DNA of 48,972 bases from Lachnospiraceae bacterium (GTDB taxonomy: Bacteria; Bacillota; Clostridia; Lachnospirales; Lachnospiraceae), in NCBI GenBank assembly GCA_024690825.1, contig JAILOK010000026.1, positions 1-48,972 on the forward strand, given 5' to 3'. A program made the position numbers and the translations under genes. Positions 38,419 to 48,880 of the stretch are shown one piece after another (the stretch's first letter is position 1; each line of letters starts with the position of its first letter). The notes under the pieces are model-generated. The model was not told where the DNA came from, searched no databases, and saw nothing but the letters and a program-made list of their open reading frames with translations.

Positions 38419-39723
38419 ATGGCTGGATTTGCATTAACAAACATATATAACAACTTTCTTACCACATATGCTCCGAAATCCTCGCGCTATGACAACCACA
38501 AGCGCGGAGAATTGAAAAGCATTTATGAGTCTATCGTTAAACAGTCGAAAGAATCTCCCCTGTTTCTCATTGATTACGGAACCGAAACGACAAGTTATGC
38601 CGTTAATATGAAGGAAAATGCGCGTGAGCTCAAAAATGTGATCTCCTCTCTTTCTTCAGAGGATACCATGAGTGTGCTCGATAAAAAGACCGCCTATTCC
38701 TCGAATGAAGATATAGTTACGGCAAAATATATAGGCGAGAGCAATTCCTCGATCGACCCGGATGATGTTCCATCCTTTGAGATCAGTGTAAAGCAGCTCG
38801 CTTCCTCTCAGGTGAACTTAGGCAGATTCATACCGGAAGGCGGGATGGATCTTGTACCAGACACCTACTCCTTCGACATAGAGATAAATGATACGGACTA
38901 TGAATTCCAGTTCAATGTAGAAGCCGCTGATACCAACAAAGACATGCAGGAAAAACTGGCCAGACTCATAAACCGTTCAAATATAGGCGTTACCGCCTCA
39001 GTCGAATCAGACGGGTCAGGACTTTCCGCGCTTCGTCTTGATAGTACGGCAACAGGGACACAGGCCGACGGCAGGAGCATCTTTTCCGTTTCCGACGATA
39101 ATACGAGCAAGGCTTCCGGAGCTGTGGAATACTTCGGATTATCCGATATTACAAGCCCTTCCTCAAATGCGGTATTTTCATTGAACGGATCCGAGCATTC
39201 AGCCTATTCAAATTCGTTTACCATAGATAAGGTATACGAGATAAACCTTAAGGGATTAAATGATGAAGATTCACCGGTTACCGTGGGCCTCCGCCCCGAC
39301 ATCGAGTCACTGGTGGGAAATATCTCCGGTCTTGTGAACGGCTACAATGATTTCATGAGAAGAGCTGCGGAATATACCGAAAGCTACGGCAGATCCACAA
39401 AGTTCAATTCGGAAATGAACAGCATCCGTACTCTCTATCAGAACGAGCTTGACGCTGTCGGTTTGAGTTTTGATGAAAACGGATTACTGGATGTAAACAA
39501 AAAACTTCTGGCTCAATCAGCGGGTGAGGGTGATCCGCACGATACACTGAAGGCGATAACGAATTTCACAAACACGCTTGTCGACAAAGCCGCCCAGATA
39601 TCATTGAACCCCATGAACTATACAAGCCGTGTGGTCGTGGAATATAAAAATCCGGGAAAGAATTTCCCGAATCCCTATATCACAAGCATGTATTCCGGCA
39701 TGATGTTCAACGGATACTGTTAA
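38419..39723 (+). CDS. FliD-like flagellar cap-related protein, orphan
   Basis: A 434-aa protein without signal peptide. From about residue 110 to 390 the layout follows FliD: EISVKQLASSQ, then TYSFDIEINDTDYEF, INRSNIGVTASVESDGSG, NAVFSLNGSEH, a YEINLKGL segment, and SLVGNISGLVNGYNDFM with GLSFDENGLLDVNKKLL. The usual FliD N-terminal signature is missing. The C-terminal coiled heptads are replaced by a short tail (NPMNYTSRVVVEYKNPG to the end, terminal Cys). No other flagellar gene is in the window. It may be an export-dependent filament component or a diverged cap. AGGAGG lies 8 nt before the ATG. Confidence 0.6.
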   Translation: MAGFALTNIYNNFLTTYAPKSSRYDNHKRGELKSIYESIVKQSKESPLFLIDYGTETTSYAVNMKENARELKNVISSLSSEDTMSVLDKKTAYSSNEDIVTAKYIGESNSSIDPDDVPSFEISVKQLASSQVNLGRFIPEGGMDLVPDTYSFDIEINDTDYEFQFNVEAADTNKDMQEKLARLINRSNIGVTASVESDGSGLSALRLDSTATGTQADGRSIFSVSDDNTSKASGAVEYFGLSDITSPSSNAVFSLNGSEHSAYSNSFTIDKVYEINLKGLNDEDSPVTVGLRPDIESLVGNISGLVNGYNDFMRRAAEYTESYGRSTKFNSEMNSIRTLYQNELDAVGLSFDENGLLDVNKKLLAQSAGEGDPHDTLKAITNFTNTLVDKAAQISLNPMNYTSRVVVEYKNPGKNFPNPYITSMYSGMMFNGYC

Positions 39724-39760: not shown

Positions 39761-40876
39761 TTATAAAATCCTGTCTGCAAGCTTCAATGCTTCATCTATC
39801 GTATCATCCATGTCAAAATACCTGTACTGTCCGAGCCTGCCCCCGAAGATCACATTTCTTTCCTTTTGTGCAAGCTTCTCATATTCCCTGTAAAGACTGT
39901 CATTCTTCTCATCATTAACGGCATAATACGGTTCCCGTCCTTCATCCCATTCCAGCGGATACTCCTTTGTTATAACCGTTCTTTCAGCGCTTGCTTCTGT
40001 ATTTTCGGGTTCGAAATGCCTGTGCTCTATCACTCTGGTATAGGGAACCTCAAATTCAGTGTAATTAATGACAGCATTGCCCTGAAGATCGGGTATGTCG
40101 AGGATCTCTTCCTCAAACTTAAGGCTTCTGTACTCCAGTTTCCCAAGACAGTGGTCAAAATACTCATCGATCATTCCCGTAAAAACAACATTTTCTGCCT
40201 CATAATCCGGATTATCCCTGTCCTTTAGGTAATCAATGCCGGTCCTTACCGGTATCCCGTCAAGGATATCTTCTACCATGGATGTGTAACCACCGATCGG
40301 TATGCCCTGATATTTATCATTAAAATAATTGTTGTCATAGGTAAATCTGAAGGGAAGTCTTCTGATTATGAAAGCGGGAAGATCCGACGCCTTTCTCCCC
40401 CATTGCTTTTCCGTATAGCCCTTGACGAGCTTTTCATAAATATCATGTCCACCCAGCAGCAGAGCCTGTTCTTCAAGGTTCTTCGGTTCAGTTATTCCTG
40501 ATCTTTTTACTTCTTCGATCTGCTCCGATATCTTTTCCTTCGCCTCTTTCGGAGTCACTACTCCCCAAAGGGAGTGAAATGTATTCATGTTAAAGGGAAG
40601 ATTAAAGAGCTCATCCTTATATCTTGCAAGAGGAGAATTTGTAAATCTGTTGAAGTCCGCATGCTCATTCACATATTTCCATACCCTCTCATTCGATGTA
40701 TGAAATATATGCGCCCCATACCTGTGGACATTTATGCCCTCGATTTTCTCCGTATAGACATTACCGGCTATATGGTCTCGTCTTTCAAGAACAAGGACCT
40801 TTTTACCGGCTTTTTTTGCCTCACTTGCAAAAACTGCGCCGAAAAGGCCCGCTCCGACGATCAGATGATCAAGCAT
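39761..40876 (-). CDS. glf: UDP-galactopyranose mutase
   Basis: This FAD enzyme interconverts UDP-galactopyranose and UDP-galactofuranose, the donor for galactofuranose in surface glycans. It is 371 aa. The N-terminal dinucleotide fold LIVGAGLFGAVFASEA is followed by RRDHIAGNVYTE, GAHIFHTSNERVW, the GYTEKQWGRK active-site segment, and the C-terminal GRLGQYRYFDMD. Its first 8 nt overlap the end of the upstream polymerase-like gene, so the two are coupled. It makes galactofuranose-containing polysaccharide likely. Confidence 0.96.
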   Translation of the reverse strand: MLDHLIVGAGLFGAVFASEAKKAGKKVLVLERRDHIAGNVYTEKIEGINVHRYGAHIFHTSNERVWKYVNEHADFNRFTNSPLARYKDELFNLPFNMNTFHSLWGVVTPKEAKEKISEQIEEVKRSGITEPKNLEEQALLLGGHDIYEKLVKGYTEKQWGRKASDLPAFIIRRLPFRFTYDNNYFNDKYQGIPIGGYTSMVEDILDGIPVRTGIDYLKDRDNPDYEAENVVFTGMIDEYFDHCLGKLEYRSLKFEEEILDIPDLQGNAVINYTEFEVPYTRVIEHRHFEPENTEASAERTVITKEYPLEWDEGREPYYAVNDEKNDSLYREYEKLAQKERNVIFGGRLGQYRYFDMDDTIDEALKLADRIL

Positions 40877-42530
40877 TCAGATACCCGTCTTCCTCCCAGA
40901 TAGGCCTCAGGCCATACCGGCACAGACACTCTCCGATACCTATTATCAGGAATATTGAAGGCGTACAGATGATCTGCTGATAACAGAAGAAGTTGTGCGC
41001 CATATATCCGAGGATCGAAAGTACCACGGCTATCACTTCAGGTCTTTCAACAGACTTCTTTGCAAATCTCACAATGCCGCCGATAAAAATACCCGTATAT
41101 GCGATCGCGCCAAGCACGCCGACATTTATGAATGCTGTCATCCACTCATTATGCGCGCAGGTAAGCACTGTATTCTCGCCCCATTTCTCAATGAGCTCGG
41201 GTGCGCAGTATGTATAGACAAGATTATAGAATCCGTCCGGACCGGCTCCGAAGATCTTCCTCATGGGATCACACTGTACAAAGGTCTTTACTGTCACCAT
41301 CCAGGATGAACCTCTGTTATTACCCCAGTAAGTATCAAATCGGAGATAGTTATTGTCACTTTCATAAGGAGTGCCCGCCAAAGCTCCTGTAGAGTTGAGC
41401 ACTATATATACGATGATGGCAGCAACTCCCACTCCGATAAGGATCAGAACTATGGTCCTGACTATCTTAAGCTTCTTTACATCTATGCTGCCCTTTTTGT
41501 CAAGAAGCGTAAATACAGCATATGCGGCGATCGAAAGCACAAACAGTACCCAGGTGATATTTCCCTTCGAAAATCCCATCATGGTATTTGAAAGCTCTAT
41601 TGCGCACTTTGCAAATATGGTCTGCAGTATTCCCACGATCTTCCATCCGCCGAAAAGCAGTATGCAGATCTCCAGGAAGCGCTTCATATACTTGTTTTCC
41701 CTGAAGGAGAAGCAGAACAGCCCGACAAGTATAACAAAATATGCGGCAAATGCACTATCGGAATTCTGCGTTATCATCGTCATGCAGCATACCAGTGTAT
41801 ATAGTCCCGAGAAAATCCTGACAGCCTTTTTATCATAATACCAGAAAGCAAATATGCCGATAGGATAAACAAGCACCATGTAACTTGAAAACCAGGTTGC
41901 CTGTCCGAGCGTGGAAATAAAGTTTATGATATATCCCTCATCGAGATCCAGATACATCTGCAAAGGATCTGTTATCGCCGTTATTGAAAAGTCCTTATTA
42001 TAGAAACGGTTAAGGATACACAGCAGGAATACTATGGTTGAAACGGAAAGATAGATAATGAGACATATCTCATCCCATCTCCAGAAACGGGATGCGAAAT
42101 AATAAAGGAGACAGAAAGCCAGCTGTGCTATCAGTCCCATATACCATCCATCGTATCCGACCAGGGTATAATCCTTGTACGGCGAGAAAAGGAAGGACAG
42201 AATGGCTATGACCGCATAGGCAAGCACAAACCTGTCTATGAGCGAAGTATTCTTCAGATCCCAATAGGCCTTTATCTTCTTTTCGGAGAAGAGCTGCACC
42301 TGATACCATACAAAAACCAGTGCAAGAAGGATCATGGCAACCAGCGTGACCCACTTAAAGAAATGCCATTTTGCTTCTCCCATGTTGTAATACTTATTCT
42401 CATAATAGAGAGGGTATATGGCGAACATGAAGAAAACATAAACGGCAGTGATCTCTTTTAACAGTTTTTTCGAAATCGGGGATCTCTCCGCCACGGAACC
42501 TGATGCTTTCGCCTTTCCTGATCTGCTCAT
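40869..42530 (-). CDS. O-antigen polymerase/ligase-like membrane protein
   Basis: A polytopic protein of 553 aa and about 12-14 helices, Wzy_C/RfaL-like. The large outer loop carries RGSSWMVTVKTFVQCDPMRKIFGAGPDGF, then CAHNEWMTAFINVGVLGAIAY, which fit the family pattern of Arg, G-x-G and HN residues. It probably polymerises or ligates undecaprenyl-linked glycan outside the membrane. AAGGAG lies 10 nt before the ATG. It is first in a two-gene operon with glf. Confidence 0.8.
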   Translation of the reverse strand: MSRSGKAKASGSVAERSPISKKLLKEITAVYVFFMFAIYPLYYENKYYNMGEAKWHFFKWVTLVAMILLALVFVWYQVQLFSEKKIKAYWDLKNTSLIDRFVLAYAVIAILSFLFSPYKDYTLVGYDGWYMGLIAQLAFCLLYYFASRFWRWDEICLIIYLSVSTIVFLLCILNRFYNKDFSITAITDPLQMYLDLDEGYIINFISTLGQATWFSSYMVLVYPIGIFAFWYYDKKAVRIFSGLYTLVCCMTMITQNSDSAFAAYFVILVGLFCFSFRENKYMKRFLEICILLFGGWKIVGILQTIFAKCAIELSNTMMGFSKGNITWVLFVLSIAAYAVFTLLDKKGSIDVKKLKIVRTIVLILIGVGVAAIIVYIVLNSTGALAGTPYESDNNYLRFDTYWGNNRGSSWMVTVKTFVQCDPMRKIFGAGPDGFYNLVYTYCAPELIEKWGENTVLTCAHNEWMTAFINVGVLGAIAYTGIFIGGIVRFAKKSVERPEVIAVVLSILGYMAHNFFCYQQIICTPSIFLIIGIGECLCRYGLRPIWEEDGYLNA

Positions 42531-42872: not shown

Positions 42873-44897
42873 CTACATAAACTTAATGCAGTTCATCTGC
42901 CAGCCGCGATATACGAACTGTTTTTCATCTATCACGGTATGATCATCATATATCTTCTGTTCCTTTGATTCATTGACGGAAGGAAGATATATATAATAAA
43001 AACAGCCTGTTAAACCGGGCGCAAGAGCATCCTCCAGCGATTCCTCGGGAAAAATATACCTCATTTCAAAAGGTATCATATCAGGGTCACCCATATTATA
43101 ACCCGGCAGACCGTTTGCCAGTCCGTTTATCTTTGTATCGTAAAACAGTTCAAAATATGACTTGTTTTCACTGTAACTGTAGGAATACCTTCCTCCCGAA
43201 AGTCCCCATGTGATCTCCTCGTGACCCAGCGAAAATAAAATGCCGTCCTCATCGCTCCTGTCCGAGATCACATAGGAAAGAACCTTTCCCAGCAGTACTT
43301 CATATGAATAGTATTCCCTGTTGCATATGATTGAATCTCCTATGGACGGTGTATTTGTCTTTTCGAAATCCACTATATTGCGTTTTCCCGCATCGAATTT
43401 CTTAAACAGCATCATCGTGACCGGATCTGCCATCCTGAAGGAACTGATAAATGCAGCCAGACAGATCACCACAGTAAGTGCGTCAGCAAACTTTCGTCTG
43501 TTAATGCTCAAAAGCATCAGTGACCCGCAGATATACAGCACGGCAATATGCGAATCCATATACCGCGGCAGCCTGTAGGTAATACACAGACAGTTGAAAA
43601 AAATAAAGATAAGATCACTGATCAACACTATCCCGACAGTTTTTTTCGTCAGTTCTCCGAAATTATCATTTTTCAAAACAAAGAGAGAAATGATGATCAA
43701 CACCGTAAGAATGCAAAACACCCACAGGTAGTTCGCTGTCAGATACAGCTTGAGCACATGTTTTATATGAGATATGTCCAATCCGAATCTTGTATCTTCA
43801 AACTGGGTTCCCCTGTCAATGCCAAGCTTGAAGAAAACAAAGAATATCATTGCCACGGAGGCAAAAAACCAGTTTTTGACATCCGAGACAAGCCTGAGAA
43901 ATATTCTGTTAAACGAACGGATCCCGTTTTGCTTTATATCAAAGATAACGGAAACAAAAACCACGCCGAAACAGACACTTCCGAATACGATCAGGCCGGA
44001 AGCCTTGGAAAAAGTGATCATGATACCGACAATAAGGAATCCGATCCAGTTGTTGACACAGCAGAAACAGATAAGGAGAGGAAACAGACACCAGATATAA
44101 TAATCATAAATATGATAAGTTGATAATCCGCACACCCAGGGGGACAGCACAAACAACGCTCCCGCCAGGATATATTCCGCTTTTTTTCTTCCGGGAACAA
44201 GCTTTCTTTGCAGAAAGATCATGCCGAAAGACGCGGCCGCTATGCAGAGAGAATTAAGTATGAAAAACGCTGTTCGTATATCGCCTGTCAGAAGTTTGAG
44301 CAGGGTAATGATATGGATATAAACAGCAGAAACATGGCTGTGGAATGTTGTAAGCTTTACATCATACAGCGATCTGTAATCCATAGCGTATACAGAACCG
44401 TATAATGTATCCGAATCCCAGGTGAACCTGACTCCTTCGGGTTCCGCAGACAATGTTATTACGAATGCGGAAAGCAAAAAAGCGGCAGCAGCTAAAAACA
44501 GCGTTTCCCTGTCCCTTATCAGACCGTTAAACCACTTTAATAAACTGCCCCTGAATCTCAAAAAAACATATATTGCCGCAAAGATCCAGCATAAGCTGTT
44601 TAACACAGCCGAATAATACCGTATTGATACGATCGTCCTGCCCACACAAAAAACCAGAACCATCTGATAAACCAGTATCAGGATACAAAGTACACTGTAT
44701 TCTGCCTTCAGTTTTTCAGACATCTTACAGTACGAGGATATCACAAAAAGAAGTGCTGAAACCAGGATCAGTCCTGCTTTCACCAGAATAAGAAAAGAAT
44801 TGCCGCTCTCATCATCATAACCTATCAGAAAAGACAGCGCATACGATATAAACGATATCAATCCTAAAACAGAGCCTGTTTTGGCATTTACCTTCAT
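42873..44897 (-). CDS. Large polytopic membrane protein, GT-C glycosyltransferase-like
   Basis: 674 aa with about 12-13 hydrophobic helices over the first 500 residues, then a soluble C-terminal domain of about 170 residues. The first outer loop contains FTWDSDTLYGSVYAMDY, acidic residues placed like the catalytic Asp of GT-C enzymes that use lipid-phosphate sugar donors, and HSHVSAVYIH follows. The family is not recognised with certainty. The ATG at 44897 is preferred to a TTG 9 nt upstream. No good Shine-Dalgarno is visible. Divergent from the YidC-fusion gene, so the two may be co-regulated. Confidence 0.6.
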   Translation of the reverse strand: MKVNAKTGSVLGLISFISYALSFLIGYDDESGNSFLILVKAGLILVSALLFVISSYCKMSEKLKAEYSVLCILILVYQMVLVFCVGRTIVSIRYYSAVLNSLCWIFAAIYVFLRFRGSLLKWFNGLIRDRETLFLAAAAFLLSAFVITLSAEPEGVRFTWDSDTLYGSVYAMDYRSLYDVKLTTFHSHVSAVYIHIITLLKLLTGDIRTAFFILNSLCIAAASFGMIFLQRKLVPGRKKAEYILAGALFVLSPWVCGLSTYHIYDYYIWCLFPLLICFCCVNNWIGFLIVGIMITFSKASGLIVFGSVCFGVVFVSVIFDIKQNGIRSFNRIFLRLVSDVKNWFFASVAMIFFVFFKLGIDRGTQFEDTRFGLDISHIKHVLKLYLTANYLWVFCILTVLIIISLFVLKNDNFGELTKKTVGIVLISDLIFIFFNCLCITYRLPRYMDSHIAVLYICGSLMLLSINRRKFADALTVVICLAAFISSFRMADPVTMMLFKKFDAGKRNIVDFEKTNTPSIGDSIICNREYYSYEVLLGKVLSYVISDRSDEDGILFSLGHEEITWGLSGGRYSYSYSENKSYFELFYDTKINGLANGLPGYNMGDPDMIPFEMRYIFPEESLEDALAPGLTGCFYYIYLPSVNESKEQKIYDDHTVIDEKQFVYRGWQMNCIKFM

Positions 44898-44929
44898 AAT
44901 AATCAAATCTCATCAAAAATGTTTGTTGT

Positions 44930-45029: not shown

Positions 45030-45074
45030 TATTTATGATGAGATTAATCCTACATAAGGAGAACTGCCCGGGTA

Positions 45075-47795
45075 ATGTTCGCGGATCTTTTATATGCCAT
45101 AATAATCTATCCCCTGGAAATATTCATAGAAACCGTTTTCTCGGTTTCCATGAATATGATCGGAAATGCCGGTTATGCGATAATATTTGTCAGCATCGCC
45201 GTCCAGCTGCTGGCCCTTCCCATGTATAAACGCGCAGATGAGATACAGGAACAGGATCGTCTCAAGCAAAAGGAACTGTCAAGGTGGATAGGACACATCA
45301 AAAAGACTTTCAAAGGTGATGAACAGCTGATGGTCCTCTCGGAGTACTATCGGCAGAATGACTATCAGCCCTGGTATTCTCTTCGCGGGATGCTTCCCCT
45401 TCTGCTTCAGATCCCGTTTTTTATAGCAGCCTATCATTTTCTCTCAAACTGCGAAACCTTAAACGGCGCATCCTTTTATTTCCTGAGGGATATGGGTACG
45501 CCTGATGCCCTTCTTAATGCAGGCGGGATATCTGTAAATGTTCTGCCTGTATTGATGACTGTCATTAACCTGGTATCGGGAATAATCTATACCAAAGGAC
45601 TTCCCCTGAAAGATAAACTGCAGCTTTTCATTACTGCCGGAGTTTTTCTCATACTGCTTTATAATTCACCGTCAGGACTGGTATTTTACTGGACCCTTAA
45701 TAATGTATTCTCCCTGATGAAAAATGTATTCATGAAGGTGGTAAAACATCCCCGCGGGATCTTATGCGTGATATCTATTTTGTTTGTAAGTGCTGTATGC
45801 GGAAAGTGTTTTATGAACGGGGCATGGCAAAAGGAAAACGGGATCCTCGTCATGGTCATCGTTTTTGCCCTTGGCTGCATACCTGCGGCAGAACTGATCC
45901 TTGACAGATTCAGATCCCGACGCGGCCGTGATAAAACTCCGAAAACCTGTATATCGGCAGCCGCCAAAACCATATTCCGGATATCCTCCGTCTCAATTGC
46001 CGTATTGCTCGGTGTAATGATACCTGCGGCAACCATTGATTCATCCCCGACCGAATTTATTATCAGGGGACACTATGTTTCGCCGCTTGTGCAGCTGATA
46101 TATACATCCTGTGTTGCTGCCGGACTCTTTGTTCTGTGGGGAAATCTTGTTTTCTTCTTCGCGTCGGAAAAATCTAAAAAAATACTTTTCTTTTTGATGG
46201 TTTCGGGAACCGTATGTGCTCTTGCGGATTTTGTCTTTTTTAAACAACATCTTAACAATATGTCAATGCATATGCAGTACTATGACACCTTCTTTTATTC
46301 GGTGCGTGAGATCCTGATCAACTCCGGCATTCTCCTCTTTATCTGCATTCTCCTTTTCCTGCTTGTCAGATTTAATGAAAAGCTTCTGCAGGCCTTAAAT
46401 TATATCATCCTCGTGTCTGTTACAGCCATGTCCGTGTATCTTGCAGCAGATATTCAGAGAGTGATCAACAATACCTCTCATATAAAAGATGACAGCTACT
46501 ATACCGAAAGCGATGTTCACTTTGATCTGGACAAGAAGGGAAAAAATGTTGTTATCTTCATGCTCGACAGAGCGTTTGGACAGTATGTTCCATACATAAT
46601 AAATGAAAAACCGGGGATCGCGGAAACCTTTTCAGGCTTTACCTATTATCCCAACACGATATCTTTCGGAACAAATACAGCCGAGGGAGCTCCGCCGATC
46701 TTTGGCGGCTATGAATACTCGACCTATAACATCTCAAAGAGAAGCAGTGAAAAAGTATCGGATATACAAAACGAAAGCCTGAAAGTTCTTCCCCGGATCT
46801 TTTCCGAAAACGGTTATAAATGCACAGTACTTGATCCCCCGTATTATATAGACCTTACGCGCAAAACCCTGGAAGAGTACTATCATGATATAGATCCGGA
46901 TATCAATGCGCGGTATGCCGACGGGGTAGTCATGACAGCCGGTGAAGCCGAACGGGATTTCAAATATTTCACGCATGCCGCCAGGATAAACTATATCCGG
47001 CACAGCATCTTTATTGCTTCACCGCTTCTGGCAAGGAGCCTCCTTTATGATGACGGCTCCTATCTGATGCAGGAAAGGATCGATGACAGGATAACCTACT
47101 CCGGTCACAAGCAGGAACTGGAAAAACTGTGGGACATGACAAATATAACCGAATCCGCTGATAATACCTTTACCGTCATAGAAAATGATCTCACTCACTC
47201 GATCAATATAGATCTCCAGCTTCCGGATTATACACAGACGGATGATGTTGATAACTCAGAATTTATGGAAGAGTGGACCTGGCATCTTTCGGATACGGAC
47301 AAAAACATCGGAAGGGACATAAACATGTATACCGCCAATCAGATCCAGACATACCAGGTCAATATGTCAGCATTTTTAAGCATCGGGAAATGGATCGACC
47401 AGCTTAAACAGAACGGTCTGTATGATAATACAAGGATAATCCTTGTCGCCGATCACGGTTACTGGCTGCGTGCTTTTGATGACATGCTGTACGATAAAGA
47501 CGGGATAGTCATGGATCTTGATATGTTCACCCCTCTTCTGATGGTAAAAGATTTCGGAGACGGAGATTTTGAAACTTCGAATGAATTTATGACAAATGCC
47601 GATGTTCCCTCACTTGCCATGAAGGATCTGATAAAAGATCCGGTGAACCCCTATACGGGAAAGAGCATAAACAGTGATCAGAAAAAGGACCGTTTGCAGT
47701 TTGTTTACGGTATAGATCACTGGTATGGCATACACGATGATATATATGATATGAAAAACTGGGATATGGTCGATGATGAGGTTCAATCAAAATGA
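45075..47795 (+). CDS. YidC/Oxa1-like domain fused to sulfatase-fold domain
   Basis: 906 aa. Residues 1-220 form a YidC/Oxa1-like insertase domain: IIIYPLEIFIETVFSV, then SIAVQLLALPMYKRADE, a charged hairpin, LRGMLPLLLQIPFFIAAY and YWTLNNVFSLMKNVFMK. The groove Arg normal in Gram-positive YidC (as in TLIVRLILLPL) is Gln44 here. About seven more helices follow (to about 470). Residues 488-800 are an alkaline-phosphatase/sulfatase-superfamily domain with metal Asp in VVIFMLDRA, probable Thr nucleophile in SFGTNTAEGAPPIFGGYEYS, and VADHGYW. No signal peptidase site is seen, and the catalytic part should face outward. The family includes phosphoglycerol and phosphoethanolamine transferases, so a transferase acting on lipid or glycan is plausible. 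AAGGAG lies 13 nt before the ATG, a long spacing. Confidence 0.85.
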   Translation: MFADLLYAIIIYPLEIFIETVFSVSMNMIGNAGYAIIFVSIAVQLLALPMYKRADEIQEQDRLKQKELSRWIGHIKKTFKGDEQLMVLSEYYRQNDYQPWYSLRGMLPLLLQIPFFIAAYHFLSNCETLNGASFYFLRDMGTPDALLNAGGISVNVLPVLMTVINLVSGIIYTKGLPLKDKLQLFITAGVFLILLYNSPSGLVFYWTLNNVFSLMKNVFMKVVKHPRGILCVISILFVSAVCGKCFMNGAWQKENGILVMVIVFALGCIPAAELILDRFRSRRGRDKTPKTCISAAAKTIFRISSVSIAVLLGVMIPAATIDSSPTEFIIRGHYVSPLVQLIYTSCVAAGLFVLWGNLVFFFASEKSKKILFFLMVSGTVCALADFVFFKQHLNNMSMHMQYYDTFFYSVREILINSGILLFICILLFLLVRFNEKLLQALNYIILVSVTAMSVYLAADIQRVINNTSHIKDDSYYTESDVHFDLDKKGKNVVIFMLDRAFGQYVPYIINEKPGIAETFSGFTYYPNTISFGTNTAEGAPPIFGGYEYSTYNISKRSSEKVSDIQNESLKVLPRIFSENGYKCTVLDPPYYIDLTRKTLEEYYHDIDPDINARYADGVVMTAGEAERDFKYFTHAARINYIRHSIFIASPLLARSLLYDDGSYLMQERIDDRITYSGHKQELEKLWDMTNITESADNTFTVIENDLTHSINIDLQLPDYTQTDDVDNSEFMEEWTWHLSDTDKNIGRDINMYTANQIQTYQVNMSAFLSIGKWIDQLKQNGLYDNTRIILVADHGYWLRAFDDMLYDKDGIVMDLDMFTPLLMVKDFGDGDFETSNEFMTNADVPSLAMKDLIKDPVNPYTGKSINSDQKKDRLQFVYGIDHWYGIHDDIYDMKNWDMVDDEVQSK

Positions 47796-48880
47796 TCCGC
47801 CGCAAACAGGAAACTTCAAATAACCTTATTGAGATCCAACAAAGCTTCGGCGGCTACTGGAGATATCCGGATATGCTGGATTTCTGCAATCTCATCAATC
47901 CTTTTTTCCCGGGAGAAGGAATCCCGGAAGAAATGCAGACTGCATTTGCGGATCTTCTCACTTCGTATCCATCCGGGATGCAGATCAATTCACATCTTGC
48001 ATCCGGACTGTTTAATGTACCCCTCGAATTCATCGTTCCCGGAAACGGGTCCGCCGAGCTAATAAGATCATTTATGAAAAGTCTTACAGGCATCACAGGA
48101 TTTATCAGGCCCTCATTTGAAGAATACCTTAACCGGTGCGATAATGGAAAGTCCGTGTGTTTTGTTCCGGAAAATCCCGATATGTCCTATACCGATAAGG
48201 ATATCATTGAGTTTTTTACAAAAAATAGGGTCAATAACCTGATCTTAATAAACCCGGATAACCCAAGCGGAAATTACATGAAAAAAAACAGTCTTCTAAA
48301 GATCATTAAATGGGCAAAAGAGGCTGAAATAAATCTGCTGGTCGATGAATCCTTTGCTGATTTTGCAGACGAGCCGCAAAACTCTCTTATAGACGAGAAT
48401 ATCTTAAAAACCAATCCCCATCTTTTTGTCATGAAAAGTATTTCCAAATCCTACGGAGTACCCGGATGCAGACTCGGGATCCTTGCATCCGGCAATACAT
48501 CGATGATCAAAAACATAAAAAATGATGTATCAATATGGAATATCAATTCGTTTGGAGAATTCTTTCTGCAGATCGTTGACAGATATCAAAAAGAATATGA
48601 ATCGGCGCTGATACGCTTCCGACAGGAAAGGACAGATCTTAAAGAGAGACTGGATTCGATCCCCGGAATAAGAATCATACCTTCTGAGGCAAACTTTTTC
48701 ATGGCTGAACTGACCGATGGTATGACAGCTTCTATGCTGACGCAGATTCTCTATGATGAACACAGTATACTGATCAAGGATCTGACAAAAAAGATAAACG
48801 ACAGATATGTCAGGATCGCGGTAAGAAACAGCGGGGATAATGACAGGCTGATATCCGCCCTGAAATCAGTATTAAAATGA
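47792..48880 (+). CDS. HisC/CobD-like PLP-dependent enzyme
   Basis: A 362-aa fold-type I class I/II aminotransferase-family protein. The cofactor motifs are GNGSAELI, LINPDNPSGN, VDESFADF, SISKSYGVPGCRLG (Schiff-base Lys) and VRIAVR near the end. It most resembles histidinol-phosphate aminotransferase and threonine-phosphate decarboxylase. No histidine or cobamide genes are nearby. Its ATG overlaps the fusion-gene stop by 4 nt (ATGA), so the two are made together. It may produce a phosphorylated amine or amino acid used by the neighbouring transferase domain (inference). Upstream GAGG lies 10 nt away. Confidence 0.85.
   Translation: MIRRKQETSNNLIEIQQSFGGYWRYPDMLDFCNLINPFFPGEGIPEEMQTAFADLLTSYPSGMQINSHLASGLFNVPLEFIVPGNGSAELIRSFMKSLTGITGFIRPSFEEYLNRCDNGKSVCFVPENPDMSYTDKDIIEFFTKNRVNNLILINPDNPSGNYMKKNSLLKIIKWAKEAEINLLVDESFADFADEPQNSLIDENILKTNPHLFVMKSISKSYGVPGCRLGILASGNTSMIKNIKNDVSIWNINSFGEFFLQIVDRYQKEYESALIRFRQERTDLKERLDSIPGIRIIPSEANFFMAELTDGMTASMLTQILYDEHSILIKDLTKKINDRYVRIAVRNSGDNDRLISALKSVLK

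Follow-up and report, generated by a model that had tools for sequence, protein, structure and literature searches.

A reading frame joining YidC and LtaS-type domains

The window, i.e., the whole stretch of DNA analysed here (48,972 nucleotides of contig JAILOK010000026.1 from a Lachnospiraceae bacterium), carries near its end a gene for a 906-residue protein, P0001, that joins a YidC/Oxa1 domain to a predicted outer catalytic domain of the alkaline phosphatase superfamily (Table 1). The initial annotation, made from the sequence alone, had proposed these two halves, and both were borne out by Pfam, AlphaFold2 and Foldseek. P0001 exceeds the cut-offs of PF02096 on residues 33–221 (E = 9.6e-24; 84.6 bits against 35), of the YidC NCBIfam model TIGR03592 (91.3 bits against 84.3) and of PF00884 on residues 490–800 (E = 1.9e-6; 27.9 bits against 25). 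The motifs quoted in the initial annotation are present at residues 495–499 (FMLDR), 532–538 (GTNTAEG) and 791–795 (VADHG).

Table 1. Positions of the fusion gene, its parts and neighbouring features, counted from the first base of the window.
Feature	Position	Strand	Basis
UDP-galactopyranose mutase, surface-glycan context	39761..40876	-	family match
Wzy/O-antigen-ligase-like membrane protein, surface-glycan context	40869..42530	-	26.4 bits, below Pfam cut-off
Likely ribosome-binding site AAGGAG, start codon 13 bases downstream	45056..45061	+	read from sequence
YidC/LtaS-type fusion gene	45075..47795	+	open reading frame, Pfam, AlphaFold2 model
YidC/Oxa1 domain, residues 1-225: N-terminal helix, transmembrane helix (TM) 1, cytosolic C1 hairpin (51-98), TM2-TM5	45075..45749	+	
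Gln44, groove-Arg position of other YidC proteins	45204..45206	+	alignment
Extra transmembrane hairpin, residues 226-290	45750..45944	+	model, loop charges
Five transmembrane helices, residues 295-465	45957..46469	+	LtaS-type layout, as in an excerpt of PMC4192460
Outer alkaline-phosphatase-superfamily (LtaS-type) catalytic domain, residues 483-870	46521..47684	+	Pfam, model, Foldseek
Asp498, proposed metal ligand (Listeria LtaS Glu263)	46566..46568	+	mapped by motif
Thr535, proposed nucleophile (Listeria LtaS Thr307)	46677..46679	+	mapped by motif
His708, proposed phosphate ligand (Listeria LtaS His422)	47196..47198	+	mapped by motif
Asp793-His794, proposed metal ligands (Listeria LtaS Asp481-His482)	47451..47456	+	mapped by motif
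CobD-like pyridoxal phosphate (PLP) enzyme	47792..48880	+	threonine-phosphate decarboxylase closest NCBIfam model, 165.8 bits, below cut-off of 290.55

An AlphaFold2 model of P0001, built on an alignment of P0001 with 98 further full-length fusions from related loci (n = 99), had a mean predicted local distance difference test score (pLDDT) of 91.3 and a predicted template modelling score of 0.88. Its N-terminus is Oxa1-like, with the five-helix YidC core fold and the cytosolic hairpin, and aligned in Foldseek with E. coli YidC (6al2) over 206 columns at a root-mean-square deviation of 3.7 Å. The outer domain resembled LtaP/LtaS, PbgA/YejM and MCR-1 structures; sulfatases and a phosphonate monoester hydrolase were also among the matches. 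Helix positions and loop charges give the order along the protein as a YidC core (five transmembrane helices, C-terminus inside), a hairpin, five LtaS-type helices and the outer catalytic domain, with charges that are clear for most loops and weak at loop 361–367. Model and loop charges thus support a catalytic domain that faces outside, as had been claimed. The "about seven extra helices" described between the two domains correspond to the hairpin plus the LtaS-type five; the model shows seven transmembrane-length helices in residues 226–465, counting the broken helix 254–282 once. The hairpin measures 45 residues or more in 90 of the 99 aligned fusions, among which mean pairwise identity is highest in the YidC domain (0.60), followed by the catalytic domain (0.50) and the stretch between them (0.29).

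The fold match and residue conservation suggest an LtaS-type metal site. An excerpt of PMC4192460 gives Thr307, Glu263, Asp481, His482 and His422 as the corresponding residues of Listeria LtaS, and their proposed counterparts in P0001 (Asp498, Thr535, His708, Asp793 and His794) are each invariant in 99 of 99 aligned fusions. A profile comparison of the fusion family with the GacH-like transferase of the source genome (L013) gave no significant alignment, and the residue mapping to LtaS therefore rests on motifs and fold.

Gln44 aligns with the arginine in the FIVRGIMYPL helix of E. coli YidC, which we take to be Arg366, the groove arginine. Alignment across homologues showed that the fusions never carry a basic residue here: the position is Asn in 87, Gln in seven and Ser in five of the 99 aligned fusions and Asn, Gln, Asn and Cys in the four other fusions of the source genome, and thus basic in none of the 103 read. 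Canonical YidC domains from genomes of the class (n = 52) have Lys (33), Arg (11), Tyr (7) or Asn (1). The initial annotation took Gln44 as an argument against membrane-protein insertion. This argument proved weak, since the canonical YidC of the source genome itself has Tyr at this position and the seven other canonical YidC proteins of Lachnospiraceae that were read have Tyr (six) or Asn (one); because canonical proteins of the same family also lack the arginine, its absence alone does not argue against insertion. A non-basic groove is best regarded as a steady mark of the fusions and, as a weak test, not as proof that insertion was lost.

Distribution of the fusion and its TagF-like partner

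Relatives of the fusion were found in at least 508 stretches, and 76 loci among these were examined: 67 from Clostridia, two each from Negativicutes, Coriobacteriia, other Actinomycetota and unassigned taxa, and one from a Treponema bin (bin labels may be wrong). Fusion-bearing genomes are patchily distributed, with at least 6 of 150 in the family, at least 9 of 291 in the class and at least 2 of 299 in the phylum (overlapping samples); these counts are lower bounds because the class and phylum scans scored at most four candidates per genome, recovering four of the five fusions of the source genome. The only other genome of the same genus in the family sample (n = 150) lacks the fusion. All matches to the C-terminal part at E ≤ 1e-20 in the 150 and 291 genomes sit in open frames of 847–1087 residues; together with the 98 further full-length fusions aligned, this shows that the fusion is not a chance event. 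Tandem copies occur, with one locus (L106) holding six fusion frames, two of them cut by the locus ends, and a single TagF-like gene. P0001 had no tblastn match among plasmids (limit E = 1e-30) and none in PHROGs, and these collections hence give no hint that it came from a plasmid or phage.

The source genome encodes six PF02096 proteins, namely one canonical YidC of 438 residues (contig C78) and five fusions on five contigs. P0001 is thus not its only YidC. The neighbours of the canonical gene, recognised by eye, are presumably jag, mnmE, mnmG, rsmG and parAB. All five fusions pass PF02096 and four pass PF00884, the copy on contig C9 scoring 22.0 bits against 25. Each of the nine fusion-bearing genomes checked has a YidC of canonical length as well (the frame in G109 contains one stop). 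Another PF00884 match of the source genome is a 643-residue sulfatase-like protein. A further match, the GacH-like phosphoglycerol transferase compared above (586-residue frame, L013:817-2556), is a conventional member of the superfamily.

Tabulation of the genes next to the fusions, a step proposed in the initial annotation, showed that a TagF-like gene and head-group genes recur there. The commonest neighbour encodes a protein of about 415–440 residues that begins YIDPGTGSMLF and matches PF04464. It directly adjoins 78 of 112 fusion frames (80 loci), and eight of the remaining frames lie at a locus edge; the paired genes share a strand in 81 of 81 cases, with a median gap of 4 base pairs. 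In a model of one such protein (pLDDT 90.5) there is a single N-terminal membrane-length helix, and the body finds its best structural match in TagF bound to CDP-glycerol. The nearest solved proteins by sequence are Cps3D and TarL. Both the TagF-like fold and the family match place the partner in PF04464. Fusions outnumber TagF-like genes at 18 of 67 loci, equal them at 48 and are fewer at one, a surplus that would be expected if one donor served several acceptor-specific enzymes. One locus (L133:10535-12700) encodes a 721-residue partner in which about 300 residues at the C-terminus have no Pfam match; the phosphoenolpyruvate (PEP) mutase, Fe-alcohol dehydrogenase and Ppd-like genes of this locus suggest a hydroxyethylphosphonate head group.

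The partner alignment was also run on the same unselected class and family genomes, free of locus choice. In the class sample, a stand-alone TagF-like gene is present in 8 of 9 fusion-bearing genomes and in 0 of 282 others (Fisher, 8e-15) or, counted by genus, in 4 of 4 and 0 of 177 (Fisher, 2e-8), values that overstate independence because the genomes and loci are related. Of the 15 TagF-like genes, 12 lie within 1 kb of a fusion's matched part, and none is more than 5.2 kb away. In the family sample the gene is present in 6 of 6 genomes with the fusion and in 1 of the 144 others. YidC-fused forms of the TagF-like protein occur in two of the 282 fusion-free class genomes (G286 and G383) and in three of the 144 family genomes (G086, G135 and G051).

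This reverse arrangement, in which a YidC domain is fused to the PF04464 enzyme, was found in six genomes: the five just named and G022, which carries both arrangements. A separate gene of the sulfatase superfamily adjoins the YidC–TagF fusion in three of them (G022, G286 and G086, the last with 19.9 bits against a cut-off of 25). Of these enzymes, that of G022 shows homology to P0001's catalytic half (E = 2e-11), with the FTYYPNT and ADHG regions common to both. In G383 the neighbours are Ppd-like, CTP-transferase and PEP-mutase genes, which those of G135 resemble by sequence; no separate transferase was recognised beside the fusion in either genome, and the G051 locus is cut by the contig end. 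G052, the sole family genome with a stand-alone TagF-like gene and no match to the fusion profile, encodes a 787-residue protein (L231:11413-13776) that lies two genes from its TagF-like gene and also has a TagD-like gene beside it. This protein begins with a fusion-like YidC domain; its catalytic half is LtaS-type but differs from that of the fusions and resembles the separate enzymes of G022 and G086 (E = 9e-59 and 3e-37). Either enzyme of the pair can therefore carry a YidC domain. In a rapid tree of 33 YidC–LtaS, three YidC–TagF and 52 canonical domains, each fusion type formed one clade, and joining the two fusion clades was not rejected (p-AU 0.545).

Among the matches listed from the open-access literature, we found no YidC domain joined to an LtaS-type transferase or to a TagF-like enzyme, and a 2009 survey of YidC evolution contains none of the words fusion, fused or sulfatase (PMC2706819). 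Every part comes from a known family, and the new element, which did not appear in that literature, is the joint of YidC with either enzyme. Such proteins are likely annotated as insertases, as the initial annotation suspected, given that P0001 scores above the cut-off of the NCBI YidC domain model.

Head-group genes and the surroundings of the window gene

Genes for activating a head group were sought with Pfam-checked proteins, the window and the LicD-like gene of one locus (L062) as seeds. At least one is present at 38 of 81 loci, as a raw count. These comprise LicC-like cytidine triphosphate (CTP) transferases (23 loci), choline-kinase-like genes (15), PEP mutases (eight), phosphonopyruvate-decarboxylase-like genes (six), CobD-like genes (five, including the window), LicD-like genes (four) and TagD-like genes (two); separately, EamA permeases occur at eight loci. 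Automatic labels, such as 'PepM' at L011 and 'PntC' at several loci, were too broad and were replaced by these seed-based counts. A possible correlation of Glu or Gln at residue 112 with the type of head group was dropped, as the rows that combine Glu with LicA/LicB genes could simply share descent.

Two further fusions of the source genome have informative neighbours: that on contig C46 is grouped with a PEP mutase, a thiamine pyrophosphate enzyme, a class V transaminase, a nucleoside triphosphate transferase and a TagF-like gene, and that on contig C60 with TagD-like and TagF-like genes. A third PF04464 protein of this genome (C31) is of another kind than the partner. Beside the fusions of four other loci (L048:12089-13885, L052:4901-6706, L069:12061-13878 and L087:4898-6730) a CTP transferase is joined to a CobD-like PLP domain, and these proteins possibly make a CDP-amino alcohol. 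PntC of T. denticola, as described in an excerpt of PMC6697681, has a transaminase half, unlike their CobD-like half.

In the window, the start of the CobD-like gene overlaps the stop of the fusion gene, and its product is homologous to the C-terminal half of the four CTP-transferase/PLP proteins. An amino-alcohol phosphate is therefore a reasonable guess for the head group at this locus. Further genes of the operon may be missing from the window, because the contig ends 92 bases after the CobD-like gene.

Two other genes of the window resist assignment. One, divergent from the fusion gene (42873-44906, reverse strand), encodes a 677-residue membrane protein with no Pfam or NCBIfam match at E = 0.01; the other (38419-39723, forward strand) encodes a 434-residue protein with weak FliD-like matches that is not a typical FliD. 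Promoter-like sites (14, against a shuffled mean of 10.8, standard deviation 3.8) and terminator-like sites (six, against 3.5, standard deviation 1.9) were not used.

Proposed function and relation to known systems

The best explanation, to which we give an even chance, is that the fusion is an LtaS/EptA-type extracytoplasmic transferase with a built-in YidC-fold domain, which moves a phosphate- or phosphonate-linked head group to a surface polymer and works with the TagF-like enzyme. It builds on results obtained by computation, namely both folds, the topology, the conserved residues, the genetic linkage and the domain swap. We regard the enzyme class and the link to head-group activation as quite probable. 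The head group could be phosphocholine, aminoethylphosphonate, a phosphoethanolamine-like group or glycerol phosphate, depending on the locus.

According to this proposal, the head group would be made and CTP-activated in the cytosol, and the TagF-like enzyme, anchored by one helix, would move it to a membrane-linked acceptor to yield a lipid-linked donor. The YidC domain would then let the head group of the donor cross the membrane, or hold the donor at thinned membrane, and Thr535 would accept the group and hand it to a surface glycan. Three elements of it are inferences, namely the acceptor, a donor linked to lipid and the passage of this donor through the YidC domain; the passage itself we consider tentative, somewhat short of an even chance. 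An excerpt of a preprint (PMC10491306) reports lipid scrambling by YidC in vitro and, in simulations, by every Oxa1 protein tested, and for this reason a groove that carries or presents a lipid-linked substrate, the role suggested in the initial annotation, is plausible. The three steps of charging a lipid, passing the head group and transferring it outside were proposed because of this scrambling activity and the layout of the module. An excerpt of PMC10434233 distinguishes two phosphocholine pathways, one in which LicD uses CDP-choline and one in which PptA uses a lipid donor, and reports no evidence for both in one species. The module seems to combine these pathways, with CTP activation and the TagF-like enzyme on the inner side, the LtaS-type enzyme on the outer side and a YidC fold that accompanies either.

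In its most far-reaching form, the proposal would make the insertase fold a translocation step for glycan decoration, in a three-part machine composed of a cytosolic CDP-X transferase, a YidC-fold passage for lipid-linked head groups and an outer Thr transferase. The YidC domain could shift between the inner and the outer enzyme, and the machine would serve phosphonates, phosphocholine and other groups alike. This is possible, though we think it somewhat doubtful. If true, it would to our knowledge be the first member of the Oxa1 superfamily dedicated to lipid movement rather than protein insertion. In these bacteria it would also account for the transfer step in phosphonate tailoring; in an excerpt of PMC6697681, the steps that lead to phosphonyl modifications after activation are described as unknown.

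Several observations weigh against the best explanation. There is no TagF-like gene in the stretch covered at 14 of 81 loci, one of which has no intact fusion frame and some of which are cut by contig ends. One genome (G389) has the fusion and no TagF-like gene, and the source genome has five fusions and two partner genes. No head-group gene of the types sought was seen at 43 of 81 loci, the products of LicA- and LicC-type genes can also supply other enzymes, and the transferase usually paired with CDP-choline, LicD, occurs at four loci. The missing background rate for head-group genes and the relatedness behind the Fisher values count on the same side. Unlike the YidC–LtaS fusions, the three aligned YidC–TagF fusions (G022, G286 and G383) retain the groove Lys, and the groove may therefore differ in role between the two types. 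Moreover, the usual acceptors of PF04464 enzymes are polymer ends or lipid-linked sugars, and LtaS-type enzymes normally use ordinary phospholipids and need no TagF-like step.

The loci without a TagF-like gene, the excess of fusions in the source genome and the presence of LtaS, PbgA and MCR-1 among the closest folds of the outer half would all suit an ordinary LtaS/EptA-type transferase that uses phosphatidylglycerol or phosphatidylethanolamine. The YidC domain would then be a membrane-thinning scaffold that brings the lipid head, and the TagF-like enzyme would act on the same polymer inside without making the donor. We judge this unlikely, if still a serious contender, as it leaves the tight linkage and co-occurrence of the TagF-like gene, the CDP-head-group genes and the YidC–TagF fusions without need. 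The partner's resemblance to the polymerases TagF, Cps3D and TarL could instead mean that it builds a teichoic-acid-like chain inside, which the YidC domain guides out and the outer domain attaches to a surface acceptor. Aminoethylphosphonate and choline, however, have no free hydroxyl for chain growth, and for a long chain the half-open groove of YidC would be short; such a system seems improbable.

The established functions of YidC are protein insertion and folding, and the fusions retain the C1 hairpin and the core helices; the domain might therefore still act in protein insertion or as a chaperone, serving specifically polytopic glycan polymerases or its own enzyme. This is a minor possibility in view of the canonical-length YidC in all nine fusion-bearing genomes checked, the attachment of YidC domains to two enzymes resembling one pathway and the six fusion frames at a single locus (L106). 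The groove is non-basic in 103 of 103 fusions, though likewise in the eight canonical YidC proteins of the family. Finally, the matches to sulfatases and phosphonate monoester hydrolase would allow a phosphodiesterase or sulfatase that recycles surface groups. We think this very improbable, as the proposed nucleophile is Thr, as in LtaS, and that of sulfatases is Cys or Ser; the membrane part is laid out as in transferases and many loci look biosynthetic.

Overall, the initial annotation stands in its two domain halves, the separate YidC, the outer domain and the surface transferase, the last supported by the TagF-like linkage and the head-group genes; its argument from Gln44 is weak. The TagF-like partner, the domain swap and the CDP-head-group genes were not foreseen in it. 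The YidC–LtaS fusions, often found beside head-group genes, suggest that some gut and rumen bacteria have reused the insertase fold to help decorate the cell surface, and provide a natural case of a YidC domain that may have left protein insertion. Most bacterial phosphonate-making capacity serves the cell surface, according to an excerpt of PMC6697681, and the module offers candidate enzymes for the steps after activation in some rumen and gut bacteria.

Among known systems, LtaS, LtaP, GacH and the EptA/MCR-type transferases share with the fusion five transmembrane helices followed by an outer catalytic domain, a Thr nucleophile and similar ligands. In contrast to these, the fusion adds a complete N-terminal YidC domain, has Asp for Glu as the first ligand, and is accompanied by a TagF-like partner gene and often by CDP-head-group genes. 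Neisseria PptA is likewise an outer transferase of the alkaline phosphatase type, with phosphocholine as its group, but in an excerpt of PMC10434233 it is described without a YidC domain and its donor is thought to be a phospholipid. The YidC/Oxa1/SpoIIIJ insertases have the same complete core with C1 hairpin, whereas the fusions have Asn, Gln, Ser or Cys in the groove, carry a transferase and exist beside a canonical YidC. The partner shares fold and family with the CDP-alcohol phosphotransferases TagF, TarL and Cps3D (PF04464) and differs from them in being short, anchored by one helix, and linked to or fused with a YidC domain. The choline-kinase-like, EamA, CTP-transferase, PEP-mutase and Ppd genes of Lic-1 (LicA, LicB, LicC and LicD) and PntC tailoring also stand beside part of the modules; unlike in Lic-1, LicD is infrequent there, and the transfer step is apparently given to the TagF-like enzyme and the outer transferase.

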